DNA of 43,456 nt from Nitrosomonadales bacterium (lineage in GTDB: Bacteria; Pseudomonadota; Gammaproteobacteria; Burkholderiales; Gallionellaceae), in the NCBI GenBank assembly GCA_016213335.1, contig JACRAQ010000081.1, positions 1-43,456 on the forward strand, written 5' to 3'. Position 1 is the first letter of the stretch, and the number at the start of each line of letters is the position of its first letter. The notes beneath the pieces were generated by a model. It was not told the DNA's origin. It saw only the letters and a list, made by a program, of their open reading frames with translations, and made no database searches. Shown piece after piece: positions 1 to 14,790 of this stretch. A program made the position numbers and the translations under genes.

Positions 1-228
1 CAGGCGCGGCGTTTCACCCTTGATCTGTTCGAACGAGAAGAACACCTCCCGCTGCGGGAAAGCGAATCCCTTGGGCGACTGGTTGGTGTTGGGGTGGTCG
101 AGCCGGACTGCGCCCTTGACCGGCTGATACGTCCAGATGTCCTCTTCCAGCGCCGGGCCGTGAACCTCCCAGCCGCTTAACGCGGCAACCCAGCCGTCAA
201 CCTGTTTCTTGTCTAGAATTTTTTCCAT
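1..228 (-). CDS. AsrA/HydB/FlxB-like iron-sulfur protein, N-terminal part only
   Basis: Only the first 76 codons are inside the window; the gene runs off the left edge. The start is the ATG at 226-228, four bases after the stop of the preceding gene, so the two are translationally close. The visible protein starts MEKILDKKQVDGWV and carries a motif reading GAVRLDHPNTNQSPKGF followed by a Pro-Gln-Arg-Glu segment. That pattern is familiar from the N-terminus of the anaerobic sulfite reductase A / sulfhydrogenase beta family, whose members carry two C-terminal [4Fe-4S] clusters. Here it follows mvhD/flxD- and flxC-like genes, so a FlxB-type electron-transfer subunit is the likely role. The Cys motifs lie outside the window, so the family call rests on the N-terminus and on context. 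Confidence 0.6.
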   Translation of the reverse strand, partial: MEKILDKKQVDGWVAALSGWEVHGPALEEDIWTYQPVKGAVRLDHPNTNQSPKGFAFPQREVFFSFEQIKGETPRL

Positions 229-232
229 GCCA

Positions 233-1264
233 TTACCTGATGAAATCGCCGGGGTCGGTATCGAGGAAGGTAGCCACCAGCGAAGGTCCTCCGATGCTCG
301 CCCCAGGCTCGAAACCGAATTTTTCGCGTGCTTCCCGTTCCATTTTGTTGTTGAGCATCCGGATCGGGACATTGACCGGGCAGGCGCGCTCGCATTCGCC
401 GCAATCGGTGCAGCGACCGGCCAGATGCATGGCGCGCGTCATGAGATAGGTGATATTTTCGGAGCGTGTCGCCGACCGCTCTATCCATTTAATGCGATTT
501 GCCTTCTCGTCGGCTGTGGTTTCTGCGGTGACCGGGAAGGTGATGCTGTCCACCACGCACTCGTCGCAATAGCACATCGGGCACACCGAACGGCACGCAA
601 AGCAGCGGATGCAGCGGTCGAAATGGCGGCTCCAGGAGTCCCAGCGTTGGCCGGCGCCCTGCGCTTCGAAACGCGTGAGCGCGGCAAACGGCTCCGCCAG
701 CTTGCGCCCGGTCTTGTCCTCGCCGAACGCAAGATTGTGCTCCTTGGGAAAAGGATTGCGGCACTCCAGGCAGCGGTCAGCCATCACCTCGCACGCCGGA
801 ATGCGCTTCTCGCCTTCTGCGGTGGTAAACACGAAGTCGTCGCCGTCGAAGGCAGCGTTCGTAGCTTGTATGCCGTTAAGGCGCGGAGCCAGTTTGCGTT
901 CGTCCACTACGCCGCTGCCCTCGCACGATACGCCGATGATGTAGACATCCTCGCGCTTGAAATAATGTTCCTGCATCAACACGACAATGGAGCGCGCATC
1001 GCATCCCTTGGCGACGATGGCGATGGGGGCGTTCGCGGTCTTGCGCAGGTGCGCCAGAAACTTGCGGTCTTCGACCAGATACAGTGAAAGATTGTGGAAG
1101 CAGGTCGGATCCCACACCAGTTCGTCGGCCTGCGCTGGGTCGGTGATGAAAGCCGGCTCGGCAAGCATGCCGCGGCTGCCGCGCCGGTAGCCGATGACGG
1201 CGCGAACTTCACCCTTGGCGAGCATGTCGCGCGCCGTGTCGCGAATGTCCTGAAGGTTAATCAT
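233..1264 (-). CDS. FlxC-like protein: FrhB-type N-terminus with C-terminal dicluster ferredoxin domain
   Basis: This 343-residue cytoplasmic protein is a probable electron-transfer subunit of an Hdr/Flx complex. The N-terminal half contains the KGCDARSI segment seen in FrhB/FdhB-type F420 or flavin oxidoreductase subunits, and an ECRNP Cys segment in the middle. The C-terminal half holds two [4Fe-4S] motifs, CIRCFACRSVCP and CTDCGECERACP, plus extra Cys in between (CYCDEC). The start chosen is the ATG at 1262-1264, which overlaps the stop of the mvhD-like gene by four bases; the same frame stays open upstream but lies inside that gene. The next gene starts four bases after the stop. It may pass electrons between the Hdr core and a flavin/NAD subunit expected to the left of the window. 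The exact substrate is unknown. Confidence 0.7.
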   Translation of the reverse strand: MINLQDIRDTARDMLAKGEVRAVIGYRRGSRGMLAEPAFITDPAQADELVWDPTCFHNLSLYLVEDRKFLAHLRKTANAPIAIVAKGCDARSIVVLMQEHYFKREDVYIIGVSCEGSGVVDERKLAPRLNGIQATNAAFDGDDFVFTTAEGEKRIPACEVMADRCLECRNPFPKEHNLAFGEDKTGRKLAEPFAALTRFEAQGAGQRWDSWSRHFDRCIRCFACRSVCPMCYCDECVVDSITFPVTAETTADEKANRIKWIERSATRSENITYLMTRAMHLAGRCTDCGECERACPVNVPIRMLNNKMEREAREKFGFEPGASIGGPSLVATFLDTDPGDFIR

Positions 1265-1695
1265 GTGCGAACCGCCTTCTTCAGTTTGTCCTGTGGTCCG
1301 AGCGGCCTCAGGTCGTTGACAAAGTCGGTGACGACCTGGGCAAACTTGGCGCCCTCGGCGGCCGACACCCAGGACATGCGGAAGCGATTCTGCTCGACGC
1401 CGATAAATTTGAGCAGTTCCATGGTCAGGTGCATCTTGCGCCGCGCCAGATAGTTGCCCTCGATATAGTGGCAGTCGCCGATATGGCAACCCGACACCAG
1501 CACGCCATCCGCCCCCTTGTTGAAGGCGGACAGGATGTACATCGGCGACACGGCGCCCGTGCACGGGATGGTGATCGGTGTCGCGTTGGCCGGATATTGT
1601 ATCCGCGAGACCCCGGCCAGATCGCTGCCTGCCGACGAGCACCACTTGCACAGGAAGGCGACGATCCTGGGTTCGTAAGGTTGTTGTTCCGACAT
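1261..1695 (-). CDS. MvhD/FlxD-like hydrogenase/heterodisulfide reductase iron-sulfur subunit
   Basis: This 144-residue protein matches the MvhD/FlpD/FlxD delta-subunit family, which carries a [2Fe-2S] cluster and feeds electrons into HdrA. The conserved cysteines are visible: C16 and C19 in FLCKWCSSAGSD, C45 in the PCTGAVSP segment, and C70 and C75 in SGCHIGDCHY. The length is typical of the stand-alone subunit. It lies downstream of hdrA after a 112-base gap that contains a stem-loop, and its stop overlaps the ATG of the flxC-like gene. In methanogens the partner is a hydrogenase. No hydrogenase gene is visible here, and the following FlxC/FlxB-like genes point instead to an NAD(H)-type Flx module. 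Family assignment is firm; the electron donor is inferred. Confidence 0.85.
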   Translation of the reverse strand: MSEQQPYEPRIVAFLCKWCSSAGSDLAGVSRIQYPANATPITIPCTGAVSPMYILSAFNKGADGVLVSGCHIGDCHYIEGNYLARRKMHLTMELLKFIGVEQNRFRMSWVSAAEGAKFAQVVTDFVNDLRPLGPQDKLKKAVRT

Positions 1696-1771
1696 CTGTT
1701 TCCCTTCTCTATATCAATTCCGTGAAAACGGGGAACGCGAAACGGGATGCCCGTCCAGCGCTTCGCGCCAC

Positions 1772-1787
1772 CCTCCCTGCCGGGAGG
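1772..1787 (-). other. stem-loop in the hdrA-mvhD intergenic gap
   Basis: CCTCCC (1772-1777) and GGGAGG (1782-1787) form a perfect six-base-pair stem with a four-base loop. It lies in the only sizeable gap (112 bases) in an otherwise tightly packed operon. No T-run follows on the minus strand, so it is more likely an mRNA processing or stabilising hairpin than a terminator. A second small palindrome (ACGGG/CCCGT around 1742-1754) lies next to it. Confidence 0.35.
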
Positions 1788-1807
1788 TTACGTTTCCCTT
1801 TTCCCGT

Positions 1808-3757
1808 CTAGGCCAGGCATGCCTCGATCATTTCATGTATCTGCAACTGCGTGACGTTCTTGACGTCGATCGCGGCGCGCAGGCAGGTGGCCGAGCAACT
1901 GCCGCAACCCTCGCACAGCGCCTCATTTACCACAGCCTTGCCGCCTTCCAGTCGGATCGCGATGAAGGGGCAAGCCTCGACACACATCCCGCAACCGGTG
2001 CAGTGGGAACGGCGCACCTTGGCGATCAGCGGCGGGCGGTTGAGCGTTGTCTGCGACAGCAGCGCAATCACTTTGGCGGCTGCCGCGCCTGCCTGGGCGA
2101 CGGTCTCGGGAATATCCTTGGGCGCCTGGGCGGCGCCCGCCAGAAAGATACCGCCGGTGACACTTTCGACCGGCTTTAATTTGGGGTGAGCCTCGGCCAT
2201 GAAGCCGTCATTGTCGCGGCCGACCTTGAGCGTCTTGGCAATTTCCGCAGTACCCTTCGAGGGCACCATGGCGAGCGCCAGCACTACCATGTCGGCATCG
2301 ATCTCCACGTTCTGCCCGGTCAGGGTGTCGGTGCCCATCACGCGAACCTTGCCGTTATGCCGGTAGAGCTTGGAGACGCGCCCGCGCAGATAGAGGGTGT
2401 CGTCATCCTCCATGGTGCGCTGCACGAATTCCTCGTAGCCCTTGCCGCCGGAGCGGATGTCGATGTAGAACACATAGGCGCGTCCGTCCGGCACATGGTG
2501 CTTGTAAAGCTGCGCATGCTTGGCGGTATACATACAGCATATCTTGGAGCAGTATGCGCAATGTTTCGCCGGATCGCGTGAACCAACGCACTGGATGAAA
2601 ACCACATTTTTTGGCTCGGTATGATCGGACGGGCGGAGCACATGCCCCTTGGTTGCGCCCGATGCCGAACACAAGCGCTCGAATTGGAGACCGTCGAGCA
2701 CATCTTCGATCTGGCCGCCGCCGAGTTCGGGCATATTTGCCTGATCGTAGAGATCGAAACCGGTTGCAACCACGATGGCGCCAACATCCTCGGTCACCGT
2801 CTCGGGTCGCATATCATAGTTGATGGCATCGGGCTCGCAGACATCCTTGCACTTGCCGCAGACGATCGGGTTCAATCCCAGACATGCTTCTTCATCCAGC
2901 GTAAAACTGGCCGGGATGGCCTGCGCATAAGGAATATAAATGGCACGCCGCGCGGTCAAATTAAGTTCATATTCGTTCGGCACCACTACCGGACAGACGA
3001 CGGTGCAGTGGTCGCAAATCTTGCACTTGTCCGGATCCACAAAAGTTGGCCTCTTGTTGATCTTGACCCGGAAGTTGCCCACAGAGCCCGCGAGCTCCTG
3101 TACATCGCTGTATGTATGCAACTTGATATTCGGGTGGCGATTCACCTCGACCATCTTGGGCGACAGGACGCACTGCGAACAATCCAGTGTCGGGAAGGTT
3201 TCGGAGAGCTGCAGCATGCGGCCACCGAGGGTAGCCTGCTTCTCAACCAGCACCACCTCCACGCCAGCATTGGCGATGTCGAGGGCAGCCTGAATTCCTG
3301 CTATACCTCCACCTATCACCATTGCCCGCCGGGTGACGTTAACAGCGATCGAATCCAGAGGTTGGTTGCGGTTAACCCGCCGCACGACGCTACGCGAAAT
3401 CTTGATCGCCTTCTCGGTTCCCTTGGCCTTGTCATTATGAACCCAGCTGCATTGCTCGCGAATATTGGCGATTTCGCAGGTGAAATTGTTAATACCAGCA
3501 CGCTTGGCGTTATCACGGAAGGTCTTTTCATGCAGGTTCGGCGAGCAACAGGTAACAACAACGCTGTCCAGTTTGTTGTCCTTGATCGCCTGAACGACTG
3601 ATTCCTGGCCAGGTTCCGAACACATGTAGACGTATTCCTGAGTAAAGGCGACGGTGTCTTCACCAGCCATCTCCTTGGCCACCTTCGCCACATCAACGGT
3701 GGCTGCGATGTTGGTGCCGCAATGGCAGACAAAAACGCCAGTACGCTTTTTCGTCAT
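1808..3757 (-). CDS. hdrA: heterodisulfide reductase subunit A (HdrA-like), FAD and multiple Fe-S clusters
   Basis: This 649-residue protein is the flavin-containing core of an Hdr complex, the site of flavin-based electron bifurcation in characterised homologues. The N-terminal domain has the family cysteines (C11/C13 in VCHCGTNI, C46, C70/C71 in TCCSPNLHE, C94 and C103). The FAD-binding motif VIGGGIAGIQAA lies near residues 147-158, followed by the signature LDCSQCVLSPKM (C193, C196). An inserted ferredoxin domain has C245, C248, C251 and C255, then C292, C300, C303 and C307. Two further [4Fe-4S] motifs (CTGCGMCVEACP, CEGCGSCSATC) end the protein. All cluster ligands appear present. The start overlaps the korC stop by four bases, so it is co-transcribed with the kor genes. 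hdrC and hdrB lie upstream in the same operon and the mvhD-like gene downstream. Confidence 0.9.
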   Translation of the reverse strand: MTKKRTGVFVCHCGTNIAATVDVAKVAKEMAGEDTVAFTQEYVYMCSEPGQESVVQAIKDNKLDSVVVTCCSPNLHEKTFRDNAKRAGINNFTCEIANIREQCSWVHNDKAKGTEKAIKISRSVVRRVNRNQPLDSIAVNVTRRAMVIGGGIAGIQAALDIANAGVEVVLVEKQATLGGRMLQLSETFPTLDCSQCVLSPKMVEVNRHPNIKLHTYSDVQELAGSVGNFRVKINKRPTFVDPDKCKICDHCTVVCPVVVPNEYELNLTARRAIYIPYAQAIPASFTLDEEACLGLNPIVCGKCKDVCEPDAINYDMRPETVTEDVGAIVVATGFDLYDQANMPELGGGQIEDVLDGLQFERLCSASGATKGHVLRPSDHTEPKNVVFIQCVGSRDPAKHCAYCSKICCMYTAKHAQLYKHHVPDGRAYVFYIDIRSGGKGYEEFVQRTMEDDDTLYLRGRVSKLYRHNGKVRVMGTDTLTGQNVEIDADMVVLALAMVPSKGTAEIAKTLKVGRDNDGFMAEAHPKLKPVESVTGGIFLAGAAQAPKDIPETVAQAGAAAAKVIALLSQTTLNRPPLIAKVRRSHCTGCGMCVEACPFIAIRLEGGKAVVNEALCEGCGSCSATCLRAAIDVKNVTQLQIHEMIEACLA

Positions 3758-4320
3758 AACACTTCTCCGCGAGTATTCTTGTTCATCTGAATGCCGTACT
3801 CATAGCCTTTATCAAAAGCTTTGACGTTGATTTTCAGAAAACGTTCTGGAACCAGGCCTGGCAGTGCCTTCTTCATCGCATCGGCGGTGACCACATTGGT
3901 GACCGCAGTAAAAAAGCCTAGTGCCACAAGATTGGTGAACAGGCGATTGCCCAGTTCTTCGGCAAAGCGGGTTGCCGGCACCCGCATCAATCTGAGATCC
4001 GGATGCTCGCCGCGCAACTTCACCAGATCCTCTTCGACGATCAAAATCCCTCCTTTGGGCAACTCGCCGTAGTATTTGTCGTAAGCCTCCTGCGACAGCG
4101 CCACGAGAACTCCGGGGTGTGTGATGTATGGATATAGAACACGTTCGTCAGAAACCACGAGCTGCGCGGCACAGGCGCTGCCGCGCGCCTCAGGCCCGAA
4201 GGCTTGGGTCATGGTGGCGAACTTGTCGTCATACAGGGACAGCGCCTTGCCAGTGATCAGGGCGCAGCGAATAATGCCTTGTCCGCCAAATCCCGAAAAC
4301 CTGATTTCTTGTGTGCTCAT
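3754..4320 (-). CDS. korC: 2-oxoacid:ferredoxin oxidoreductase gamma subunit
   Basis: This 188-residue protein is the gamma subunit of a CoA-dependent 2-oxoacid:ferredoxin oxidoreductase. The family hallmark GFGGQGIIRCA is at residues 10-20, followed by the FGPEARGSACAA segment. Length and motif order are those of KorC/OorC. It follows korB after 11 bases, and its last bases overlap the start of hdrA, which suggests coupled expression of the oxidoreductase and the Hdr core. With alpha, beta and a ferredoxin-type delta subunit encoded next to it, the enzyme is a four-subunit type. 2-Oxoglutarate is the most likely substrate from the similarity of KorA and KorB, but pyruvate or branched-chain 2-oxoacids cannot be excluded from sequence alone. 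Confidence 0.9.
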   Translation of the reverse strand: MSTQEIRFSGFGGQGIIRCALITGKALSLYDDKFATMTQAFGPEARGSACAAQLVVSDERVLYPYITHPGVLVALSQEAYDKYYGELPKGGILIVEEDLVKLRGEHPDLRLMRVPATRFAEELGNRLFTNLVALGFFTAVTNVVTADAMKKALPGLVPERFLKINVKAFDKGYEYGIQMNKNTRGEVL

Positions 4321-4331
4321 GCGCTCGATTC

Positions 4332-5579
4332 CTACTTACGGGTCTTTTTAGGTGCAGCCTTGGCCACAGCTTTGGTGCTCTTGGACTTGGCTTGGGCGGC
4401 TGCCTTGGGAGCGGCTTTTTTAGTTCCAGCTAACGCCTGCTTCGCAGGCATTATCTTGCTCTGAAACTTCGTTTTCGCAGCCTTGGCCGGAGCTTTTGTC
4501 ACAGCTTTCTTCACAGGCTTAACCGCAGCCTTCTTCGCTGCCTTGGGAGTGGCAGCAGCCTTTGCAGGAGCCTTTTTCACCTTAGCTGCAGAGGCTTTCC
4601 GGGTTGTTGCTGGCACTATTGCCTCTCCCTGCGCCTCTGCTGCTGCCATCGCGGCACGACGAGCGGCGATCCTTTCCTTCTCGGCTTTTTCCTCAGCCTC
4701 CCGTTCGGGAATGGTCTTGCCGTAGAGCTGATAATCGTCGCCTACCAACTTGATGCTGCATTTGTCGGAGGCTTCCAGATACGAAGGCTTATTCTTATCG
4801 ACAAACTTACCGATTACGATCTTGCCCTGATAGTCGATAGCCGTCTCACGTGTATCGGCGCCATGCTTGATAATGGTGTTTTCCTGATAATGCTGAAGCA
4901 TATCGACGCCATCGCCGAGGCGGTTGCGACGAAGGTAAAGGGTCGTGCAGGGCGAGATGACTTCAATGAAGGAAAAGCCCTTGCGCAACAACGCTTCCTC
5001 GATCGATTGGGTGACGTTGCGCGAATGCACCGATGTCCAGCGTGCAATGTACGTCGCGCCAGCGGCATCCATCAGGAAAGGAAGGCTGAACGGATATTCG
5101 TAGTTACCGTAGGGCGTGGTCGAGGCAATTGCAGAGTTTGGCGTAGTCGGCGTCACTTGGCCGCCGGTCATGCCATAAGTAAAGTTGTTGTTGCAGATGA
5201 CCACCAAATCCATGTTGCGCCGTGCAGCATGGATCAGGTGATTTCCACCAATTCCGGCTAGATCACCCTCGCCGCTGAACACCACCACCGTCAGCTCTGG
5301 GTTGGCCAGTTTGACGCCAGTGGCAACGGCAATCGCACGGCCATGCGTGGTGTGGATCGAATCGAAGTTGACATAGCCTGCTACACGACCGGTGCAACCG
5401 ATACCTGATACCACAACCAACTTCTTGGGGTCAATGCCGCTACGCTTGACAGCATCGGCAAAGGAATTCACCTCTGAGCCGATGCCACAACCCGGACACC
5501 AGATATGCGGCATCCGATCCATGCGCAGGACGTCTGCCATGGGGCTGCCTGCCTTGAATTTTCCGAGTTCAGTGCTCAT
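4332..5579 (-). CDS. korB: 2-oxoacid:ferredoxin oxidoreductase beta subunit with Lys/Ala-rich C-terminal tail
   Basis: Residues 1-290 form a normal thiamine-diphosphate and [4Fe-4S]-binding beta subunit. Cluster ligands are C28 and C31 in WCPGCG, C62 in GIGCTG and C211 in SPCTT; the TPP/Mg segment is SGEGDLAGIGGNH followed by CNNNFTYGMTGGQ. The family usually ends near here. This protein continues with a charged helix-like stretch (about 291-320) and then some 90 residues (325-415) made almost only of Lys, Ala, Pro, Thr and Val, with repeated KKA, PAKAA and PKAA units. That tail resembles histone H1-like or PhaF-like DNA- or polyanion-binding domains. It is in frame with no frameshift sign, and a normal stop precedes korC by 11 bases. 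The start overlaps the korA stop by four bases. The enzyme call is firm; the role of the tail is unknown. Confidence 0.9.
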   Translation of the reverse strand: MSTELGKFKAGSPMADVLRMDRMPHIWCPGCGIGSEVNSFADAVKRSGIDPKKLVVVSGIGCTGRVAGYVNFDSIHTTHGRAIAVATGVKLANPELTVVVFSGEGDLAGIGGNHLIHAARRNMDLVVICNNNFTYGMTGGQVTPTTPNSAIASTTPYGNYEYPFSLPFLMDAAGATYIARWTSVHSRNVTQSIEEALLRKGFSFIEVISPCTTLYLRRNRLGDGVDMLQHYQENTIIKHGADTRETAIDYQGKIVIGKFVDKNKPSYLEASDKCSIKLVGDDYQLYGKTIPEREAEEKAEKERIAARRAAMAAAEAQGEAIVPATTRKASAAKVKKAPAKAAATPKAAKKAAVKPVKKAVTKAPAKAAKTKFQSKIMPAKQALAGTKKAAPKAAAQAKSKSTKAVAKAAPKKTRK

Positions 5580-6742
5580 TGGTTTGCCTTTCTGATAGCG
5601 TCCAGGATGACCGCAGGATCATGCACCGCGCCACCGCAGTGATTGACGCTGATTACCTTGCTATGGCTGCCCGCGCAGCGTTCCACTTCCTTGACCATCT
5701 GGCCGTAATTGATTTCCGGTACCACGAATGCCTTTACCTTGCCGGTCAGTTCGCGGATGCGCTTCTCGCAGAATGGCCAGATCGTGATCAGGCGTAGCGA
5801 GCCGACTTTGATGCCTTCCTTGCGCGCATCCTGGATCGCCTTGACGGCAATCCGCGAAGTGATGCCATAGGACACCACCACGACATCGGCGCCGTCGATC
5901 TGATCCTCGTCGAGACGAATGATGTCGTCAGCATTGCTATTGATCTTTTCCATCAGGTGGGTCACGACCTTCACGTTCTGCTCGGCGGTCATCACCGGAT
6001 AGCCTTTTTCGTTATGAGTCAGGCCGGTGATATGGAAATTGTAGCCGTCGCCCGCGCGCACCATCGGATGGCCGCCCTTGCTGTCGAACTTGTAGGGGCG
6101 ACAGTCTTCTTTCGGCCCGCTGTAGTTGTTGCGCGGAACAATCTTGATCTGGTCGGCCGGCGGGATGACCACTTTCTCGTGCATATGGCCGACGGTCTCG
6201 TCAGTCAGGATGATGACCGGCACGCGGTAGAACTCCGACAAATTGAAGGCCTCGACGGTGAGATCAAAGCATTCCTGCGGGCTGTCCGGGCACAGGGCGA
6301 TGATCATGTTGTCGCCATGCGGGCCGTAACGAGCCTGCATCATGTCCTGCTGGGCGGTCAGCGTGGGCAGGCCGGTAGACGGGCCACCGCGCTGCACGTT
6401 GGCGATCACCATCGGCGTCTCGGTCATGCAGGCCAGGCCGAGATTTTCCGTCATCAGGGAGAAGCCGGGACCGCAGGTTACGGTCATCACTTTCTGGCCT
6501 GCCCAGGCCGCACCGATATTGGCGGCAATGGAGGCGAGTTCGTCTTCCATCTGGATGAACATGGCTCCCACTTCCGGAGCGCGCTCCGCAAAACGCTCGG
6601 CGGTTTCCGTCGAGGGCGTGATGGGATAGCCGGCAAAAAACCGGCAACCAGCCGCCAGCGCGCCTTCGGCAAGCGCATGGTCGCCATCCATGAAATGGGG
6701 GCCGGAATCAACCCCTTTGGGATCTGCTGCAACGGTTTTCAC
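5576..6742 (-). CDS. korA: 2-oxoacid:ferredoxin oxidoreductase alpha subunit
   Basis: This 388-residue protein is the alpha subunit that builds the thiamine-diphosphate active site together with KorB. Visible hallmarks are GYPITPSTE near residue 39, the QMEDELASIAANIGAAWAG segment, TCGPGFSLMTENLGLA, and QRGGPSTGLPT. These are typical of KorA/VorB proteins with a separate gamma subunit. The enzyme interconverts a 2-oxoacid plus CoA and an acyl-CoA plus CO2 with ferredoxin. In the reductive direction it is a key reaction of the reverse TCA cycle, in the oxidative direction a ferredoxin source. Four-base overlaps link it to korD upstream and korB downstream. Confidence 0.93.
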   Translation of the reverse strand: MKTVAADPKGVDSGPHFMDGDHALAEGALAAGCRFFAGYPITPSTETAERFAERAPEVGAMFIQMEDELASIAANIGAAWAGQKVMTVTCGPGFSLMTENLGLACMTETPMVIANVQRGGPSTGLPTLTAQQDMMQARYGPHGDNMIIALCPDSPQECFDLTVEAFNLSEFYRVPVIILTDETVGHMHEKVVIPPADQIKIVPRNNYSGPKEDCRPYKFDSKGGHPMVRAGDGYNFHITGLTHNEKGYPVMTAEQNVKVVTHLMEKINSNADDIIRLDEDQIDGADVVVVSYGITSRIAVKAIQDARKEGIKVGSLRLITIWPFCEKRIRELTGKVKAFVVPEINYGQMVKEVERCAGSHSKVISVNHCGGAVHDPAVILDAIRKANQ

Positions 6743-7002
6743 TTTTCCGCTTCTCCTATGTTATTTTCTTCTACCCTTGTCACGAAGATGGAAAACTCCG
6801 GACAGATAAGCTGACAAAACTTGCAGTCGGTGCAGGCTTCCGGGTTCTTTGCATACGGCGGGTGATAGCCCTTGGCATTGAACTCGGCGGACATTTCCAG
6901 CACATTGGTGGGGCAGAATTGCACGCAGAAAGCGCAACCCTTGCACCACTCGTTATTGACAAAGACTTTGCCGTGCGCCGGTTTCAGATCATTGAAAAAC
7001 AT
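6739..7002 (-). CDS. korD: 2-oxoacid:ferredoxin oxidoreductase delta subunit, 2x[4Fe-4S] ferredoxin
   Basis: This 87-residue protein has two complete [4Fe-4S] motifs: C20, C23, C26 and C30 (CKGCAFCVQFCP) and C57, C60, C63 and C67 (CTDCKFCQLICP). It is the small ferredoxin-like subunit that transfers electrons from the KorAB active site. It lies 12 bases after hdrB and overlaps the korA start by four bases, which fixes its place in the kor subcluster. It could be shared with the Hdr proteins as a local electron carrier, but that is inference. Confidence 0.9.
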   Translation of the reverse strand: MFFNDLKPAHGKVFVNNEWCKGCAFCVQFCPTNVLEMSAEFNAKGYHPPYAKNPEACTDCKFCQLICPEFSIFVTRVEENNIGEAEK

Positions 7003-7014
7003 TCTTGCCTCTCC

Positions 7015-7893
7015 TCAGCTCAAACCGCGCGCCTTCAAGACCGGCAGCGGATCAATATGCTGAAGGTCAAAGCGCAGCGCCGATTCATCGCATCCGAACG
7101 CCAGCGCCATCAACTGGGTAAAATAAAGCACCGGCATGTTCTGGAATCCGGAATTGAAGCGCTTCGCGTCATCCTGGCGAAAATCCAGGTTGAATGCGCA
7201 CAACGGACAGCTCACCACTACCAGGTCTGCCTTTTCTTCCCATGCCGAACCCATGATCCTGTCGGTGCGGTCGGCGATGACTTCCGGCTTGTCCACTGTG
7301 TGGTAGGCCCCGCAGCATTCCGTCTTGTGCGAAAAATCCACCGGGGTTGCGCCCAGCGCGCGCACCAGGTTTTCCATGATCATCGGATTTTCCGAATCAT
7401 CGAAGGCAACTTCCTTGGGGCGCACCAGCAGGCAGCCGTAATAACAGGCCACGCGCAATCCCTTGAGCGGCCTGGTCACCTTCTTCGCCAGATTATCGAA
7501 GCCGATGCGGTCGCGCAGGTACTCGAGCAGGTGCAGGACTTCTACATCCCCCTCATATTTGATCTTTTCGAGGGAAAGAAAATCGTTGATGGTATCGAGC
7601 GCATCGGCACGCGCCTTCACGTCGATATTGGCCCGCTTGAGTGTGTTGTAGCACATCGCGCACCCGGTCATGAATTCGCTGGCCTGCGCTTCCTTGACGC
7701 GAACCATGTTGGTTATCGGCGCCACCCGGTTCATTACATTGCCCGAATCCAGCGCATGCACTGTACCGCAGCAGTTCCAGCGATCCAGTTCCTCGACCTC
7801 CACATCCAGCTTCGCCATTGACGAAACCGTGGATACGTCAAAGTTGCTGGCGTGATTTTTCAGTGTGCAACCGGGGTAATAAACTAGTTTCAT
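7015..7893 (-). CDS. hdrB: heterodisulfide reductase subunit B (HdrB-like), two CCG domains
   Basis: This 292-residue protein has two complete CCG domains: C9, C41-C42 and C78/C81, then C150 or C154, C193-C194 and C229/C232. In characterised HdrB these bind two noncubane [4Fe-4S] clusters that cleave a disulfide. All ligands are present, so a catalytically competent subunit is expected. The closing segment CPLCAFNLD is typical of HdrB. In thiol:fumarate reductases the same type of domain is fused to the iron-sulfur subunit; here it is a separate gene downstream of the fumarate-reductase-like pair. A betaproteobacterium has no coenzyme M/B, so the physiological disulfide or other acceptor is unknown. 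hdrC precedes it by 36 bases and korD follows after 12. Confidence 0.9.
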   Translation of the reverse strand: MKLVYYPGCTLKNHASNFDVSTVSSMAKLDVEVEELDRWNCCGTVHALDSGNVMNRVAPITNMVRVKEAQASEFMTGCAMCYNTLKRANIDVKARADALDTINDFLSLEKIKYEGDVEVLHLLEYLRDRIGFDNLAKKVTRPLKGLRVACYYGCLLVRPKEVAFDDSENPMIMENLVRALGATPVDFSHKTECCGAYHTVDKPEVIADRTDRIMGSAWEEKADLVVVSCPLCAFNLDFRQDDAKRFNSGFQNMPVLYFTQLMALAFGCDESALRFDLQHIDPLPVLKARGLS

Positions 7894-7929
7894 CGGTTTG
7901 TTCTCAATTTCCCAATCATGGGCATGACA

Positions 7930-8352
7930 TCAGGAGGCCAGTTTGCGCAGGGCGCTGATCGTGGCAATGGGTGGCAGCTCGCTGCGCGCATCGGGTGGCA
8001 ATTTCATGATGCCGAGATTGTCCTCGCGCCGGTTGTTGCGCAGCATGGTGATGCGCACCGACTCGATGACTTCTGCGATTTTTATGCCCTTCGGGCAGCG
8101 CGCGTTGCATGTCAGGCAGGAAACGCACATCCAGATGGACCCGGCAGCATGCAACTGTTTCTGCATCCCCAATTGCGCCATGCGGATGATCTGGTTGGGC
8201 AGCACGTCCATGTGGGCCGCCATCGGACAACCGGCGGAACATTTTCCGCACTGATAGCAGGCCAGCAGGTTCTGGCCGCTGATCTTTTCGATGCTGGCCA
8301 CAAACGACTTGCCGGCATGGGACTGGTTGATTCGCAGCGTAGATGTATTCAT
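7930..8352 (-). CDS. hdrC: heterodisulfide reductase subunit C (HdrC-like), 2x[4Fe-4S]
   Basis: The 140-residue product has two complete [4Fe-4S] motifs: C32, C35, C38 and C42 (CYQCGKCSAGCP) and C76, C79, C82 and C86 (CVSCLTCNARCP). This is the standard HdrC arrangement that carries electrons from HdrA to HdrB. I chose the ATG at 8350-8352 (protein MNTSTLRINQ). An earlier in-frame ATG would extend the protein by 21 residues into the end of the ferritin-like gene. Ten bases separate the chosen start from that gene, and hdrB follows after 36 bases. Confidence 0.88.
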   Translation of the reverse strand: MNTSTLRINQSHAGKSFVASIEKISGQNLLACYQCGKCSAGCPMAAHMDVLPNQIIRMAQLGMQKQLHAAGSIWMCVSCLTCNARCPKGIKIAEVIESVRITMLRNNRREDNLGIMKLPPDARSELPPIATISALRKLAS

Positions 8353-8362
8353 GGATGATCGC

Positions 8363-8896
8363 CTAATATTTTCCGTCCATGCGGAACTCCGGGGTGTTGA
8401 GCCATAGCCCGACATTCAATACGCTGTCCATTTGCGCCTGGAGGAAGTCGTACTGGGAGCATTCTTCCAGAATCATTTTTCCGAGCAGTTCGATAACCTC
8501 CGGATCCTGCGTGTGGCCAGCCATTTCCTTGAGCAGGTGGATGGCGCGCCGCTCCAGTTCCATGGCCATGCGCAACGCCTGGGTGTCATCGGCGACCACC
8601 GCGTGGCCGCGATGGGCGATGGCGGCTTCCATTTCGGCGATGATTTTTGACGGGTGGGCGTTCGCCGCTTCTTCCGCCACAAGGTTTTGCCACATTTCCT
8701 GGCCGATGACGGCACCAAACACCCGGTGTATGTTTTTCCGGTGCTCCCCCCCTTCCTCCGCCAGCCGCAACAACATAACCTTCCCGCCGGGGTTCTGGGT
8801 CATCTCGGCCGCATGGCGGTAGAAATGCTCTTCGCCATGAACGAAGCTCAGCGCGGTGCGCGCCAGCTCAATCACTTTATCATCAATATGTGTCAT
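8363..8896 (-). CDS. ferritin-like/rubrerythrin-type four-helix protein
   Basis: This 177-residue, all-helical-looking protein has Glu/His motifs in each predicted helix: EEHFYRHAAEM near residue 22, a Glu-rich EEGGEH segment near 47-52, MELERRAIH at 112-120 and EECSQYDFLQ near 144-153. The first and third resemble the diiron ligands of ferritin-like and rubrerythrin proteins. The second is spaced slightly differently from the classical ExxH, so the metal site cannot be assumed. There is no C-terminal rubredoxin domain. It sits between the fumarate-reductase-like flavoprotein (17 bases) and hdrC (10 bases), so it is part of the operon. A role in protecting the oxygen-sensitive Fe-S enzymes (peroxide or oxygen removal, iron supply) is plausible but inferred. 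Confidence 0.65.
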   Translation of the reverse strand: MTHIDDKVIELARTALSFVHGEEHFYRHAAEMTQNPGGKVMLLRLAEEGGEHRKNIHRVFGAVIGQEMWQNLVAEEAANAHPSKIIAEMEAAIAHRGHAVVADDTQALRMAMELERRAIHLLKEMAGHTQDPEVIELLGKMILEECSQYDFLQAQMDSVLNVGLWLNTPEFRMDGKY

Positions 8897-8913
8897 GAAT
8901 CCTACTCCGGAGC

Positions 8914-10626
8914 CTAAGCGCCAGGCCTTTCCTCGTGCATCCGGTTGACCACGGCAGGGCCGGGCAGATTGTTATTGCCACGCAGCAACTGGCGTTTCTT
9001 GACATCTTCAGGAGCATAGGACGGCAACAGGACCGGGGTAACCAGATCGGTTTTAACGCCGGCATCCTTCAGTTCATTTTCATATTTATCGAGGTGAGCC
9101 AGGCTAAGTTTTCCAAGCTTGACTGACTTGGCATATTCACCGGCATAGCGCCCAGCGCGCCGCCCAAACACGTTGTAGTCGAGCACCGAGTTGCCCATCA
9201 GCCGGTTGCGCCCATGCAGGCCGCCGCTGGCCTCGCCCGCCACATACAGGCCGGGGATGTCCGTTTCGCAACGCTCGTTGATTTCGATGCCACCATTCTG
9301 GTAATGCAGGGAGGGGTAAATCAGCATCGGCAGCTTGGTGATGTCTATGCCGTAGCGGATGAACTGGCGGTACATGGCCGGAAAGTGCTTGTCGGTGTAA
9401 CCCTCGCCGTGCAACATGTCTATGAGCGGGGAATCCAGCCACACGCCGACGCGCCCGGAAGGCGTGGGGATGCCGCCGCCGTTCTGCACGCATTCGCGGA
9501 TAATGGCCGCCGCCTCGACGTCGCGCGGCTCGCGCGGAAAGACGAACAGCTCGCCGTCCTTGTTGAGCGGCTGGCCGCCGGCGCCGCGGATCGCCTCGGT
9601 GACCAGAAAGCCAGCAATCTGTTCCGGAAACGAGACGCCCGTCGGGTGGTACTGCACCGAATCCATATACATCAGCCTGGCGCCCGCGCGATAGGCCATC
9701 ACCAGCCCGTCGCCGGTCGCGCCGTAGTGGTTGGTGGTGTCGAAGCCGCGGATATGCAGGCGGCCGTAACCGCCCGTGGCGACCAGCGTGGCCTTTGCCT
9801 TGACGGTGAAAAACTCCTCGCTTTCCATGTCATAGAGAACCGCGCCGGCACACCGCCCCTTGTTATCCATGATCAACTCGACTGCCGGCATGAATTCCTT
9901 CACGGCAATCATGTCAGGATGGTTGCGCACCTCGTCCATCAGCGTGCGCATGATCATGGCGCCGGTGTAGTCGCGGCACGACAGCATGCGCTTGCGCGAC
10001 GTGCCGCCGCCATGCATGACCTTCAGCGAGCCATCTTCCAGCTTATCCCACACTACGCCCAGATCCTCGAGCCACTTGACCACGCCGGGCCCGTCCTCGG
10101 TAAGCGCCCTGACGAGTTCCGGCTTGTTCTCGAAATGGCCGCCGCCGATGGCATCCAGATAATGGCGCGGCGGTGAATCGGTGCGCGACACGGCAGCCTG
10201 CATGCCGCCCTGGGACATCATCGAATTGGCATCACCCATGCGCAGCTTGGTGGAAATGATCGAGCGCATGCCGTGTTCTTTCATCGCGACCAGCGCGGCG
10301 TTGCAGCCTGCGCCGCCGCCCCCGATAATCAGAAGGTCGGTTTCGAAATCCGGTTTGTCGAGGTTCACCTGCTCGCTGCGCAACCAGGAGTGGGACTCCA
10401 GCAGCTCGGCCACCTCGGTGGTCACCGTCTCGCCCCGGTTGGGGCCGACGTGCACTTTCCTGCGCGCGCTGGGTTCGAAATCGGGATGAAAACCCTCCAG
10501 CACCGCCTGGCGCTCCTCCGCGCTCATGGGCGGGTAAACCGGGGCCGGTTTACGTGCCAGTTCCAGTCGCCCGGGGCGTGTTTGAACCACTTTGCGGAGA
10601 GACTCCGCCATATAATCTGGATACAT
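8914..10626 (-). CDS. fumarate reductase/succinate dehydrogenase-type flavoprotein, thiol:fumarate reductase (TfrA)-like
   Basis: This 570-residue FAD protein has the catalytic motifs of the fumarate reductase/succinate dehydrogenase family: FAD-binding IIGGGGAGCNAA (about 100-111), HYGATGDGLVMA, QYHPTG, TEAIRGAGG, the active-site REPRDVEAA stretch and a C-terminal GLYVAGEASGGLHG. Two features differ from the E. coli type. The FAD motif is preceded by about 95 extra residues. The His that covalently holds FAD in membrane-type enzymes (HTxAAxGG) is replaced by Asn134 (NSMMSQGG), so FAD is probably non-covalent, as reported for methanogen TfrA. No membrane-anchor genes (frdC/D type) are present, so the enzyme should be soluble. 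The iron-sulfur partner lies 28 bases upstream. The direction (fumarate reduction or succinate oxidation) is not visible. Confidence 0.85.
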   Translation of the reverse strand: MYPDYMAESLRKVVQTRPGRLELARKPAPVYPPMSAEERQAVLEGFHPDFEPSARRKVHVGPNRGETVTTEVAELLESHSWLRSEQVNLDKPDFETDLLIIGGGGAGCNAALVAMKEHGMRSIISTKLRMGDANSMMSQGGMQAAVSRTDSPPRHYLDAIGGGHFENKPELVRALTEDGPGVVKWLEDLGVVWDKLEDGSLKVMHGGGTSRKRMLSCRDYTGAMIMRTLMDEVRNHPDMIAVKEFMPAVELIMDNKGRCAGAVLYDMESEEFFTVKAKATLVATGGYGRLHIRGFDTTNHYGATGDGLVMAYRAGARLMYMDSVQYHPTGVSFPEQIAGFLVTEAIRGAGGQPLNKDGELFVFPREPRDVEAAAIIRECVQNGGGIPTPSGRVGVWLDSPLIDMLHGEGYTDKHFPAMYRQFIRYGIDITKLPMLIYPSLHYQNGGIEINERCETDIPGLYVAGEASGGLHGRNRLMGNSVLDYNVFGRRAGRYAGEYAKSVKLGKLSLAHLDKYENELKDAGVKTDLVTPVLLPSYAPEDVKKRQLLRGNNNLPGPAVVNRMHEERPGA

Positions 10627-10654
10627 CTTGGATCCTCTCTATTTCGGGTGCGGG

Positions 10655-11350
10655 TTATTCCGAATCGCGGGCGTAATAAAGTTTCGACAGGGAGTCGCGG
10701 TTCATTGATATCAGCTTGGCATATTCGGCATTGAACGCGCCCTCTTCCACAGCCTTGACGCGCTCTGCCAGCTCCGGGCTGTCCTTGCGCAAATAACGGC
10801 CATAGAGGCGCTTCGCCAGGATGCCGACCAGGGGCTGCACAATTTCTGCCGGGCACCGCAACATGCACAGACCGCAGACCACACAGTCAAAGGACAAATC
10901 CATCACCTCGGCAATATCGCCCCGCTTCGCGGCCTGGACGTAATCCATGACCTGCAATCCCTGCGGGCACGACCGGGTGCAGGTGCCGCACGCGACACAG
11001 CGGAACACCGACGGATAATGCTGCTCTATGGCGCTGACGTTAGGCTTGAGTTTCTCAATGTCATAAATGGCTTTTTCGGCCGGCACCGACGGGACCTGGG
11101 CGAGCGTCATCCCATCCTCGACCATAGTCATGCAGGCAAGGCCGCCGTATATCTTGTAATCTCCGGGCAAGCGATAAATAGTGGCGCAGGCCCCGCAATA
11201 ACCCTCCCGGCACCCAGCACCGCGGATTATCTGATGCCCGGCATACTCGATGGCACCCATGATAGTCGCGTCCGCCGGAACATCGTAGGGTTTGCCCATG
11301 ATGCTAACCGTAACCATGCGTTCCTTTGTTTCTGCAGCCGATCTAGCCAT
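10655..11350 (-). CDS. fumarate reductase iron-sulfur subunit, TfrB N-domain-like
   Basis: This 231-residue protein is the first gene of the operon. A [2Fe-2S] ferredoxin domain carries C47, C52, C55 and C73 (GCREGYCGAC). Two ferredoxin motifs follow: C118, C121, C124, C128 (CVACGTCTRSCP) and C156, C159, C162, C166 (CVVCGLCMLRCP). All ligands are regular CxxCxxCxxxC, so two [4Fe-4S] clusters are expected, unlike the [3Fe-4S]-containing membrane fumarate reductases. Methanogen TfrB has a fused CCG (HdrB-type) domain that is missing here, but separate hdrC/hdrB genes follow in the same operon. The ATG at 11348-11350 has an AAGG ribosome-binding site about nine bases upstream and a leader of about 130 bases from the predicted promoter. 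Confidence 0.85.
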   Translation of the reverse strand: MARSAAETKERMVTVSIMGKPYDVPADATIMGAIEYAGHQIIRGAGCREGYCGACATIYRLPGDYKIYGGLACMTMVEDGMTLAQVPSVPAEKAIYDIEKLKPNVSAIEQHYPSVFRCVACGTCTRSCPQGLQVMDYVQAAKRGDIAEVMDLSFDCVVCGLCMLRCPAEIVQPLVGILAKRLYGRYLRKDSPELAERVKAVEEGAFNAEYAKLISMNRDSLSKLYYARDSE

Positions 11351-11488: not shown

Positions 11489-11518
11489 ATTATAAGGAGG
11501 TTTGTAAAAAATTGACAA
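11489..11518 (-). promoter_or_regulatory. sigma70-type promoter for the fumarate reductase-hdr-kor-flx operon
   Basis: Read on the minus strand, TTGTCA (11513-11518) and a perfect TATAAT (11489-11494) are separated by 18 bases. Transcription would start near 11482, giving a leader of about 130 bases before the first ATG. It is placed just past the terminator at 11538-11570, as expected for the head of a transcription unit. No start site has been measured. Confidence 0.7.
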
Positions 11519-11787: not shown

Positions 11788-13026
11788 CTATTCTTCCGCC
11801 AGCAAACCGAGTTTCTTCGCCAGCCACTTGGTAGTGGTGGCCTGGATCAGGATGGTCAGCAGGATCGCGATAAAAGTCACCGAGGCAATGATCTGCGCGC
11901 CGGACGCTTTCATGCCCACCAGCATCCCCGCAAGCGCGCCGGGGATCACGCCGGTTTCGCGCGTCCAGCACATGAACAGCATTTCCTTGAGGCTCCACTT
12001 GGCGCGTCGGTCCGGCAGCGCACAGAGGAACACCGTCGCCGGGCGCGCGACCAGCATGAACACCGCCACCACGGCTGCTCCCGCGAGCAGATACTGGTTC
12101 ATCAGGGCGAAATCCACCTGCGCGCCGAGCAGGATGAAAATGAACATGCGCATGACCAGCGATGTGGTCATGATGAAATCCTCGAGGATGGCCTCATCGT
12201 GGTGAATGCGCTTGAAGCCGAGCGACTCCTGGTTGCCGAGCATGATGCCGAACACGAACACCGCCATGAAGCCGCTGGCGTGCATGCCGTCCGCACCCAT
12301 ATAGGCGCCGATCACCGCCATCAGGGTGACCACCGGCGCATATTCGGCGAGGAAACCGAATTTCTCGTGTGCAATGAGGAATGCCGCCATATAGCCCAGT
12401 ATTCCGCCGATCAGGATGCCCAGCAACGATTGCTTGAGCAGGTCGGCAGCAGCATCGCCCGCCGAGAATTCGCCCGCGCCCATCGCCACGCCCAGCACGG
12501 TAAAGGTGAGGATGGCGCCCATCGCGTCATTGAAGGCGGATTCGCTCATCACCGTCTGCGCCACGCGCTCCTTGATTTTTACCTGTTTAAACACCGGCAC
12601 CAGCGTAGCCGGGTCGGTGGACGCGAGCACGGCGCCGAGCAGCAGCGCCACGATGACGGGCACCCCAAGGAAATAATACGCCGCCAATCCGGTGATGGCG
12701 CCGGTAACCAGCACGCCGATGGTGGAAATCACCACGATGGTGATCCACACCTCTTTCAGCACCTTGAGGCGGATGGATGCACCGCCGTCGAACAGGATGT
12801 AGCTCGAGCCGAAAATCAGGATCAACTGATTGATGGCGGAATCTGCCTTGATATTGACCAGCCCCAACACGCTGGGGCCGAACAGCATGCCCACCAGCAG
12901 GAATACCACCACGTCGGGCACCCGTGCCAGCCGGGCGACCAGCCCGGAGAAAGTCCCCACGGCCAAGATGACGCCAAACATCAGCAATACGTGCTTGGCC
13001 AATTCCAGTGAGGCTGAGGGTTCCAT
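11788..13026 (-). CDS. CPA1-type Na+(K+)/H+ antiporter
   Basis: This 412-residue integral membrane protein has about twelve hydrophobic segments. The family motifs are VGMLFGPSVLG near the N-terminus, STDPATLVPVF, and the ion-binding SESAFNDAMGA, whose Asn-Asp pair marks CPA1 exchangers. RETGVIPGALAGML near the C-terminus is also typical. There is no C-terminal cytosolic RCK/TrkA domain, so it is a short NhaP-like exchanger. The preferred start is the ATG at 13024-13026 (MEPSASLELAK) with a GGAAGGG site just upstream; an ATG six codons earlier is possible. It is divergent from the next antiporter gene across a 178-base gap. Ion specificity cannot be read from sequence. Confidence 0.85.
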   Translation of the reverse strand: MEPSASLELAKHVLLMFGVILAVGTFSGLVARLARVPDVVVFLLVGMLFGPSVLGLVNIKADSAINQLILIFGSSYILFDGGASIRLKVLKEVWITIVVISTIGVLVTGAITGLAAYYFLGVPVIVALLLGAVLASTDPATLVPVFKQVKIKERVAQTVMSESAFNDAMGAILTFTVLGVAMGAGEFSAGDAAADLLKQSLLGILIGGILGYMAAFLIAHEKFGFLAEYAPVVTLMAVIGAYMGADGMHASGFMAVFVFGIMLGNQESLGFKRIHHDEAILEDFIMTTSLVMRMFIFILLGAQVDFALMNQYLLAGAAVVAVFMLVARPATVFLCALPDRRAKWSLKEMLFMCWTRETGVIPGALAGMLVGMKASGAQIIASVTFIAILLTILIQATTTKWLAKKLGLLAEE

Positions 13027-13204
13027 TATGCCCTTCCAATGCAAGCGCCAATATCCATTGTGGTATTATCGCCCCGGGTGTCTGCACAGTAAATGATATT
13101 GAAATCAAATAGAGAATCACTCACCCCTGCCCAACAGTCAATTTAAATAATTTCACTCGCTTTCCCGGTATATCGCTTGCCGATAGCCCGAGAATATCCA
13201 AATC

Positions 13205-14533
13205 ATGAACTACGTAAAAATTGCCTCCCTGTTTGTTTTTGCTTTCCTGTTGAATCGTGCTGCCCCGGAGATTCTTGAACGCCTAACCCTGCTTGGAGGT
13301 ACGGAGACGGCTATCGCAATTTCCTTGTGGTGCCTGGGGCTGTTTCTCGTATTTGGCTGGGCGTGCAGCAAATTGTCCGAGGGAACCGTCTTCCCCAACT
13401 TCACCCTGCAGCTTCTGGTGGGCATCGTCCTGCATGACGCGCTGGCGCCCATTGGCGCGGCGGTCATGCTTGCGGTGGTGGCTTGCACCGCGCTGGCCGC
13501 CATCATCCTGAAGGGCGGCGGCGACGAGGTGGACCGGCGCGATTTCGTGAAGATTGCCTACCCCACCGCGATGATCGCCCTGGTGGGTTATCTCATCACC
13601 TTCTTCATCATGTTCCCGGTACTGATGGCGCTGGGGCTGGATGGCAAGACCGCCGCCCTGCTGGCGGCCATCCTCGGTTCTACCGATCCGGCGGCGCTGA
13701 TTCCGACCCTGAAGCAGATTGCCTTCAAGAACGAGTATAAGCGCCTCGCCAGCATCTCGGTTGCGGAAAGCGCCCTCAACGACGCAGTCGGCGCCATCTT
13801 CGTAGCTGCGATTGCATCCATGATCCTGGCCGGCATTTCCGTGGATTCAATGGGTAGCCTGATCTCCGGCCTATTCAGTGCGGAGAACCTGATGCATCTG
13901 GGTAAGCAATTCCTGTTTGGCACCATCGCCGGCATCATTGGCTGGTGCGCGATGTACAGCTATGAGGTTTACAAGTCGCGGGACAACGAGCGCGACCTCG
14001 GGGAGACTGCCTATGATTTCGCGATCGTGCTGTCTATCCCGCTGGTGACCTTCCTGCTGGCGCAAGCTATCCACGGCAATGGGTTCCTGGCGGCCTTCGT
14101 AGCCGGCCTGCTCGCCAACTACAACCATGGCAAGGAATACTTCCACAAGACGCTGCACACCATGGAGATCAAGATCGAGAGCATTGCCAAACCGACGATC
14201 TTCATGATGGTCGGCCCCTTCGTTGCCCTGGGCGAACTGTGGAACACCGCGCTGCTGGGCCTGCTGGTGTCGCTCGTCTTCATCCTCGTCGCCCGGCCCG
14301 TGGCGGTCATGCTGTCCATGCTGCCGACCAATCTCGACATGAAAGACAAACTCTTCCTGAGCATCGTGCGGGAGACAGGCGTGATCCCCGTTGTGCTGGC
14401 AGTCATCACCGCCGCACAGTTTCCGGAACTGACCCTGCTCCTGCCGCTGACGGCCTGGGTAGTCATCTGGACCCTGACCCTGCTGCCCGCAATCACACCC
14501 TGGTGGTCAAGGAAACTCGGCATTGTGCAATAA
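13205..14533 (+). CDS. second CPA1-type Na+(K+)/H+ antiporter
   Basis: This 442-residue polytopic membrane protein has the same core as the divergent neighbour: LGSTDPAALIPTL, VAESALNDAVGAI (Asn-Asp ion-binding pair) and VRETGVIPVVLA near the C-terminus. It differs at the N-terminus (MNYVKIASLFVF) and has an insertion GGGDEVDRRDF. The two are paralogues, not a recent duplication, because the sequences differ throughout. Gene ends face the KefB-like antiporter across a 257-base gap in which I see no clear terminator, only short palindromes such as CTGCCGGCAG. Likely role: cation and pH homeostasis. Confidence 0.85.
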   Translation: MNYVKIASLFVFAFLLNRAAPEILERLTLLGGTETAIAISLWCLGLFLVFGWACSKLSEGTVFPNFTLQLLVGIVLHDALAPIGAAVMLAVVACTALAAIILKGGGDEVDRRDFVKIAYPTAMIALVGYLITFFIMFPVLMALGLDGKTAALLAAILGSTDPAALIPTLKQIAFKNEYKRLASISVAESALNDAVGAIFVAAIASMILAGISVDSMGSLISGLFSAENLMHLGKQFLFGTIAGIIGWCAMYSYEVYKSRDNERDLGETAYDFAIVLSIPLVTFLLAQAIHGNGFLAAFVAGLLANYNHGKEYFHKTLHTMEIKIESIAKPTIFMMVGPFVALGELWNTALLGLLVSLVFILVARPVAVMLSMLPTNLDMKDKLFLSIVRETGVIPVVLAVITAAQFPELTLLLPLTAWVVIWTLTLLPAITPWWSRKLGIVQ

Positions 14534-14790
14534 CCGGTGAGAGTACCAGCTGCCGGCAGAATCAAGCGGCGATAGTGGCGCGAGTATTCTTTGGGAAGCC
14601 ATCAAGGTGGTTGCGAGAATATTGTTCTCAGTTGGAGATGTTGTTAGGATGAAAGCCGTTTACCAGATAATGAAATACTTGCGTTGACTCGCTTTGATGC
14701 CCTGTTTGTATATGCTCAAGCACTTTGCTGCTCGCCACGTTCCTGCCAAATAAGTGACCCCCGGCATATCGGGAAGGTTGCCTCGATTAT

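Follow-up and report, generated by a model that had tools for sequence, protein, structure and literature searches.

A reverse tricarboxylic acid cycle operon of the Gallionellaceae with probable NADH-driven Flx-HdrA bifurcation to fumarate and Kor

What brings the genes of a fumarate reductase, a heterodisulfide reductase (Hdr) core, a 2-oxoglutarate:ferredoxin oxidoreductase (OGOR, encoded by kor genes) and Flx-type subunits into one operon of a betaproteobacterial family? The question is raised by the first 11,350 bases of contig JACRAQ010000081.1 of a Nitrosomonadales bacterium belonging to the Gallionellaceae, a family noted for its iron oxidizers (assembly GCA_016213335.1). Positions 1-43456 of this contig, called the window here, were analyzed (contig C56 of genome G000 in our numbering); the window begins at base 1 of the contig. 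It contains the greater part of a reverse tricarboxylic acid (rTCA) cycle operon, frdBA-(ferritin-like)-hdrCB-korDABC-hdrA-flxDCBA-aclBA(-acn), which is cut by the contig end. The operon probably directs electrons from NADH, by Flx-HdrA bifurcation, both to fumarate and to Kor. A first-pass annotation of the same DNA had proposed a joint module for NADH, ferredoxin, fumarate and 2-oxoglutarate. It was right in outline but incomplete, having missed the continuation into ATP-citrate lyase (Acl) and the prior publication of such a cluster. The idea of a joint module is supported; a physical complex or metabolon is an inference.

All 13 genes lie on the minus strand and are read from position 11350 towards 1. 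Twelve are complete and one is cut, as had been counted before. Their order is frdB, frdA, a ferritin-like gene, hdrC, hdrB, korD, korA, korB, korC, hdrA, mvhD (flxD), flxC and the cut flxB. Overlaps of 4 bases are found at korD/korA, korA/korB, korC/hdrA and mvhD/flxC (the ATG of flxC is at 1264), and the ferritin-like gene and hdrC overlap by 53 bases. The gaps elsewhere are 4-36 bases, with the exception of 112 bases between hdrA and mvhD. Gene identities are based on Pfam, NCBIfam and matches to solved structures, which uphold the earlier assignments of HdrABC, KorABCD and MvhD/FlxCB-like proteins.

The FlxA-like, NAD-binding gene that had been expected to the left of the window was found in relatives and on the 7.7-kb contig C115 (locus L004), which belongs to the same assembly. 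C115 is not the plain left continuation of C56, because its korB-flxB part overlaps that of C56, being 79-83% identical to window positions 1-5200. It is therefore a second copy of the operon, from the same genome or from a related strain. Beyond this part, C115 carries the whole flxB, then flxA and then an ATP-grasp gene. In one relative, FlxA combines NAD-binding with DHODB Fe-S domains. The ATP-grasp gene is a putative aclB, its full-length relative having ATP-grasp and citrate-binding domains. The next gene in the relatives encodes a protein of 900 residues. Its front resembles succinyl-CoA ligase, and its back gives a weak match to citryl-CoA lyase that falls far short of the cut-off; the protein is taken as the presumptive AclA, consistent with the published cluster described below. 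In locus L044 aclA is followed by an aconitase-like gene. Given this extension into ATP-citrate lyase, seen in relatives and on C115, the operon is regarded as a reverse-TCA carbon-fixation operon. The C115 copy is 85-89% identical to the operon of G014, a genome of the same genus, compared to 82-84% for C56. The tested flank genes of C56 are 88-91% like those of G014, yet they are on another contig there. The duplication could represent a paralogue, a transfer or mis-binning.

The operon is unusual within its family, as the first-pass annotation had supposed. Operon-type frdA (84-100% identity) is present in 16 of the 120 family genomes surveyed, in G044 as fragments only, and of 399 genomes from the order, 5 have HdrB at E <= 1e-80, the window's own genome being one of them. 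A scan of 84,980 species genomes gave 291 matching stretches, 269 of which encode relatives; the best 80 loci were retained. They overlap in part with the loci of the family genomes, so the two sets are not independent samples. Loci with a match to the ferritin-like gene, 35 of the 80, are called full-type; the other 45 have no such match, some being cut upstream. Conservation of the combined order in relatives had been proposed as a check on the reading, and 33 of the 35 full-type loci follow the order frdB-frdA-ferritin-like-hdrC-hdrB-korDABC-hdrA-mvhD-flxCBA-aclB. The order test covers the reference genes only, and many loci end at contig ends, hence some of the stretches are short. The exceptions are L084 and L085, where aclBA is ahead of frdB. 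The largest gaps between matched genes are below 0.6 kb, mostly at the end of korB, once aclA of L084 and L085 and a stray second match to frdB in L061 are set aside.

The 45 other loci are mostly from Aminicenantes, but also from Spirochaetota, Bacteroidota, Coatesbacteria, Acidobacteriota and others. Thirty of them fit the order hdrCB-korDABC-hdrA-mvhD-flxCBA-frdBA or any piece of it, however short, 6 fit the same order without flx, and 9 fit neither. Trees calculated by a quick method with the LG+G4 model for HdrA (62 rows), KorA (64), HdrB (81) and FrdA (42) all group the full-type loci together, with support values of 100, 94, 77 and 96, respectively. The outsiders within this branch are L083, whose contig begins in hdrC, and, in the HdrA tree only, L093. 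Thus the parts of the operon have mostly travelled together. Two loci have other neighbors: in L124 (4666-7187, unclassified bacterium) hdrCB is beside distant aclB/aclA-like matches (24-29% identity), and in L130 (14053-20555) several HdrA-like matches stand in a row further downstream of hdrCB.

The tie to ATP-citrate lyase extends across the family. aclA (at least 84% identity) is found in 14 of the 16 genomes with operon-type frdA, the exceptions being G000 and G044, compared to 3 of 22 genomes without it; the 22 were hand-picked from 104, and three further aclA matches at 31% were excluded. In 11 of the 14 genomes aclA is on the same contig as the operon. RuBisCO is present in 37 of the 38 tested genomes (not G107) and the E1 component of 2-oxoglutarate dehydrogenase in 37 of 38 (not G026; 36 above cut-off), in each case with or without the operon; the RuBisCO of the window's genome is on G000:C95. 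Of 15 operon genomes, 10 encode a full NifJ-type pyruvate:ferredoxin oxidoreductase (POR) that scores above cut-off, as do all 3 genomes with acl only and 1 of the 12 that lack acl. The region just upstream of frdB in G055 holds genes for POR, a LysR protein and malate dehydrogenase.

The HdrA-like flavoprotein of the bifurcating type (1808-3757) is full length with 649 residues. It can be aligned over its entire length with the bifurcating HdrA of 5odc (E 5.7e-194), and both the flavin adenine dinucleotide (FAD) and the ferredoxin domains are present. The HdrB/SdhE-like subunit (7015-7893) matches 7bkb and 5odc and contains two complete CCG motifs, all ten cysteines of which are invariant in 10 family sequences. 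The HdrC-like ferredoxin subunit (7930-8415), FlxD/MvhD of the FlpD family (1261-1695) and the FlxC-like iron-sulfur protein (233-1264) were identified by Pfam and NCBIfam. The FlxB-like gene (1-228) is cut by the contig end, and its whole homolog on C115 resembles sulfhydrogenase beta/AsrA. Four Kor genes stand together: the ferredoxin-like delta subunit KorD (6739-7002), the alpha subunit KorA (5576-6742), the thiamine pyrophosphate-binding beta subunit KorB (4332-5579) and the gamma subunit KorC (3754-4320). KorD and KorC were assigned by NCBIfam, in which only KorA is above its cut-off (NF006412), and KorB matches the OGOR chain 8ys5 among solved structures; 2-oxoglutarate is the presumed substrate.

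An Hdr part that serves sulfur oxidation, as in sHdr-like systems, and that adjoins the TCA genes by chance is a highly improbable explanation. Sulfur oxidation is described in some Gallionellaceae (PMC10734462). HdrA, however, scores as HdrA2/HdrA in NCBIfam, though below the curated cut-offs, and all but two of the full-type loci preserve the arrangement of hdr among the kor, frd and flx genes. Gene content and order led to the rejection of the sHdr reading, for which sHdr and lipoate-binding proteins were not searched.

The FrdB-like iron-sulfur subunit (10655-11350, 231 residues) has a Fer2 and a Fer4 dicluster domain and lacks a CCG domain. The FrdA-like flavoprotein (8914-10626, 570 residues, with an N-terminal extension of about 90 residues) matches SdhA, NadB and FrdA chains in a search of the Protein Data Bank (PDB). 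Alignment shows that it keeps the HPTG, PRD, HYxxGG and HGxNRL stretches, and has Asn at the position of the SdhA His that is the covalent FAD ligand. In FrdA mutants, loss of the FAD-binding His reportedly spares fumarate reduction, but harms succinate oxidation. The best NCBIfam match of FrdA is TfrA, at 340 bits against a cut-off of 718. An identity as L-aspartate oxidase (NadB, 280 bits; 1chu is the second PDB match) was rejected because the TfrA score is higher and the place between frdB and the hdr genes is conserved. FrdB reaches 39 bits with the TfrB profile, whose cut-off is 385. Both subunits are thus far below the Tfr cut-offs and FrdB has no CCG domain, so that the TfrAB-like subunits of the first-pass annotation are not TfrAB in the strict sense. 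The single-chain TfrB profile (488) is covered by FrdB over 19-187 and by HdrB over 263-484. The two proteins are the front and the back of one chain in this profile, which suggests that FrdB and HdrB are in contact.

A scheme can be proposed on this basis. FlxABCD would accept electrons from NADH, and the flavin of HdrA would split them into two branches. The high-potential branch would run through HdrC, HdrB and FrdB to FrdA, where fumarate would be reduced. The low-potential branch would leave by the ferredoxin domain of HdrA to ferredoxin, or directly to KorD, and reach KorAB, which would carboxylate succinyl-CoA to 2-oxoglutarate. One step of the rTCA cycle, fumarate reduction, would thereby pay for another, the synthesis of 2-oxoglutarate. 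The potentials are -320 mV for NADH, +33 mV for fumarate and about -490 mV for 2-oxoglutarate. With these standard potentials, the conversion of 2 NADH to reduced fumarate and 2-oxoglutarate is downhill by ~35 kJ and the reverse is uphill. The features of HdrA and HdrB, the fit of FrdB and HdrB to one profile, the Asn of FrdA and the energetics therefore favor NADH-driven bifurcation.

The same machinery could run oxidatively, by confurcation: 2-oxoglutarate and succinate would be oxidized and NAD reduced in a variant TCA segment. Kor and Hdr enzymes are reversible in principle, and the fetched loci of other phyla, many of them likely from heterotrophs, have the core without acl. Such a run would, however, be uphill by the ~35 kJ given above, FrdA lacks the His for covalent FAD, the operon is tied to ATP-citrate lyase, and 37 of 38 genomes already hold the 2-oxoglutarate dehydrogenase E1 for the oxidative job. 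Oxidative use is thus an improbable explanation.

The electrons might also be passed on without any contact between the enzymes. Flx-Hdr would then make free reduced ferredoxin and a reduced, DsrC-like thiol carrier, and these would be used by Kor and by a thiol-driven fumarate reductase, all of them separate but co-regulated. This alternative, which is named in PMC11636981, is rather unlikely, though it has more in its favor than the oxidative run. HdrB retains all CCG cysteines, operons often group a pathway that forms no complex, and the core is found without flx in 6 of the 45 other loci. What speaks for contact is the position of korD, directly after hdrB in 35 of 35 full-type loci, and the fit of FrdB and HdrB to a single chain. 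Furthermore, frdBA stays beside hdrCB in two loci without any kor match (L126 and L131), and likewise on the short contig L132.

NADH-driven bifurcation in the service of the rTCA cycle also has to be weighed against several contrary points. An Hdr-Kor-Frd complex is not known from biochemical work or from a structure. The hdr-kor-flx-frd core occurs in loci of other phyla without acl within the fetched stretch, and may therefore serve other ends. RuBisCO and 2-oxoglutarate dehydrogenase are also present in operon-free genomes, so the operon is dispensable for either job. aclA was not found in the window's genome; only aclB was, on C115, possibly from a different strain. In the Endoriftia symbiont, the cluster shows operon-like co-expression, with the exception of tfrAB, whose expression departs from the rest (PMC11636981).

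acl also occurs in another arrangement. In G111 (L137, G111:C5, 4610-19655) the genes aclB, aclA, acn, monomeric isocitrate dehydrogenase, korA, korB, frdB, frdA and a NuoF-like gene stand in one row, with a two-subunit Kor and an FrdA of 43% identity; no Hdr or Flx matches were found in this row. The cassette would provide a different route from NADH to fumarate. Six of the 16 Hdr-operon genomes also carry an FrdA of 43-45% identity. G010 and G061 have acl without the operon, and their korAB-frdBA genes are apart from acl. Beside acl in G061 (L139, G061:C4, 10930-11058), a stretch that contains a stop matches the C-terminal end of FlxA. This remnant is likely to be the scar of a lost Hdr-Flx operon.

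KorB of the window has a long C-terminal tail (4332-4706) of 124 residues, with a net charge of +27 and ending in KKTRK. Among the 65 named loci with a readable korB end, 23 encode 92-184 residues past reference residue 291, composed of 20-29% Lys and 22-40% Ala and carrying a charge of +21 to +39; the remaining 42 encode 0-47 residues past this point. In 21 of the 23, the tail closes with KTRK or with KTRK and one further residue. Tailed KorB proteins are nearly all betaproteobacterial; L067, L083 and L086 have betaproteobacterial names and no tail. The tailed loci with other names are L060 (Sulfuricaulis, placed among Gallionellaceae in the HdrA tree) and L075 and L079 (Gammaproteobacteria). 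When 1755 stop-to-stop frames of at least 100 residues from 25 family sources were passed through a filter for Lys/Ala-rich polycationic sequences, 14 frames passed and all 14 are KorB; the KorB of G077 fails the filter. In the AlphaFold model of KorB, residues 290-318 form a helix, and everything from residue 319 onwards has very low confidence. The tail is likely to be disordered, but not more than likely, because values under 50 are also reached in the core (133-164 and 216-253) and the model is poor overall (mean 60.6). At a guess, it docks to an acidic ferredoxin or to a polyanion.

The ferritin-like protein (8363-8896, 177 residues), which corresponds to rbr in the published cluster, scores 24.0 bits with Pfam Rubrerythrin against a cut-off of 22.8. 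Its model is helical with a confidence (pLDDT) of 82. Foldseek gave bacterioferritins as the best matches (E 0.0098) and nothing at or below 0.001, and a sequence search of the PDB gave one chance-level match. Some of the likely metal-ligand positions, chosen by our own reading of the alignment, are changed compared to relatives. Position 19 is Glu in 33 of 36 rows and Val in the window, position 49 is Glu in 29 of 36 and Gly in the window, and position 148 is Gln in 19 of 36, the window included, and His in 11 of 36. The candidacy of the protein as a working rubrerythrin is weakened by V19, G49 and Q148, and it may now be a structural part.

Upstream of frdB is a promoter-like site, TTGTCA-18-TATAAT (11489-11518, minus strand), with 11 of 12 consensus matches. 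A motif scan found no promoter-like minus-strand site inside the operon, and 18 of 23 relatives, hand-picked from the 30 full-type loci with frdB, have a TTGNNA/TATRAT pair in the 300 bases that precede the frdB match; the pair was not found in L064, L065, L073, L084 and L085. These results agree with the single clear promoter of the first-pass annotation, but the 4 promoter-like sites of the whole region are not above the shuffle mean of 5.8. Next to the operon, three consecutive frames (11788-16014) resemble cation/proton antiporters by eye.

The same gene set has been described in tubeworm symbionts, Thioflavicoccus mobilis and the metagenome-assembled genome (MAG) RIFOXYD12_FULL_61_37 (PMC6315080, Rubin-Blum et al. 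2019). As in the window, korABCD and tfrAB are interspersed with flxABCD-hdrABC in the published rTCA cluster, which also holds aclAB, acn and a gene named rbr, the counterpart of the rubrerythrin-like gene of the window. Flx-Hdr was proposed there to pass electrons straight on to OGOR and to thiol:fumarate reductase, and the bifurcation model is in print (PMC6315080, PMC11636981). The tubeworm symbionts and Thioflavicoccus have RuBisCO in the same genome (PMC6315080), as does G000. RIFOXYD12_FULL_61_37 (our L073) follows the order of the window from frdB to flxC and then has flxB, flxA, aclB and the start of aclA. Unlike the 2019 cluster, that of the window comes from a betaproteobacterial family, and it differs from L073 in the polycationic tail of KorB and in the likely ligand positions of the ferritin-like protein.

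Three further systems are related to the operon. TfrAB resembles it in that TfrA is the best match of FrdA and the two ends of the TfrB profile match FrdB and HdrB. TfrB, however, is one chain with a CCG domain, whereas the window has it split over two proteins that score below the cut-offs. The MvhADG-HdrABC complex of methanogens (5odc) shares the full-length HdrA alignment, the HdrB cysteines and MvhD, but the window's operon has no hydrogenase gene and has Flx and Kor/Frd instead. The third system, known from work on Desulfovibrio, is the FlxABCD-HdrABC NADH dehydrogenase/heterodisulfide reductase, as it is named in PMC6315080. It has FlxD, FlxC, the cut FlxB, HdrA, HdrB and HdrC in common with the window, the whole FlxB and FlxA being on C115 together with HdrA; unlike it, the window's operon has the kor and frd genes built in.

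Since the cluster and the model were published in 2019 for gammaproteobacteria, the kind of operon is already known. Nor is rTCA in betaproteobacteria wholly new, because a Ferrovales-like betaproteobacterial MAG has all genes of the Calvin-Benson-Bassham and rTCA cycles (PMC6094481). The Gallionellaceae pangenome paper discusses RuBisCO, and its main text has no matches to 'TCA' or 'citrate lyase' (PMC10734462). No description of an Flx-Hdr-Kor-Frd cluster in Gallionellaceae was found in the literature, the broader search results being covered in part. The cluster's occurrence alongside RuBisCO and 2-oxoglutarate dehydrogenase in genomes of this family was not found in print in these searches. 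Further new facts are the KorB tail (the literature on the tail was not searched), the acl arrangement of G111 and the flxA scar of G061.

A more far-reaching picture is offered tentatively and is, as a whole, doubtful. In Gallionellaceae, the Flx, Hdr, Frd and Kor proteins might assemble into a single soluble supercomplex, where fumarate reduction driven by NADH would directly pay for CO2 fixation into 2-oxoglutarate beside the Calvin cycle. The histone-H1-like tail of betaproteobacterial KorB might hold the complex to a polyanion or capture acidic ferredoxin, and the Hdr module might be swappable for a NuoF-FrdBA-KorAB cassette (in a row in G111 only), with ATP-citrate lyase staying.

For organisms living on Fe(II) or sulfur with oxygen, the difficulty of the reverse TCA cycle lies in its need for low-potential ferredoxin. 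The seeming coupling of fumarate reduction to 2-oxoglutarate synthesis would be a solution that needs no reverse electron flow to ferredoxin. The two arrangements of acl and the tail of KorB are natural variants with which such coupling can be tested. With the operon's occurrence in the Gallionellaceae, possible dual carbon fixation is no longer confined to the sulfur bacteria described in 2019.

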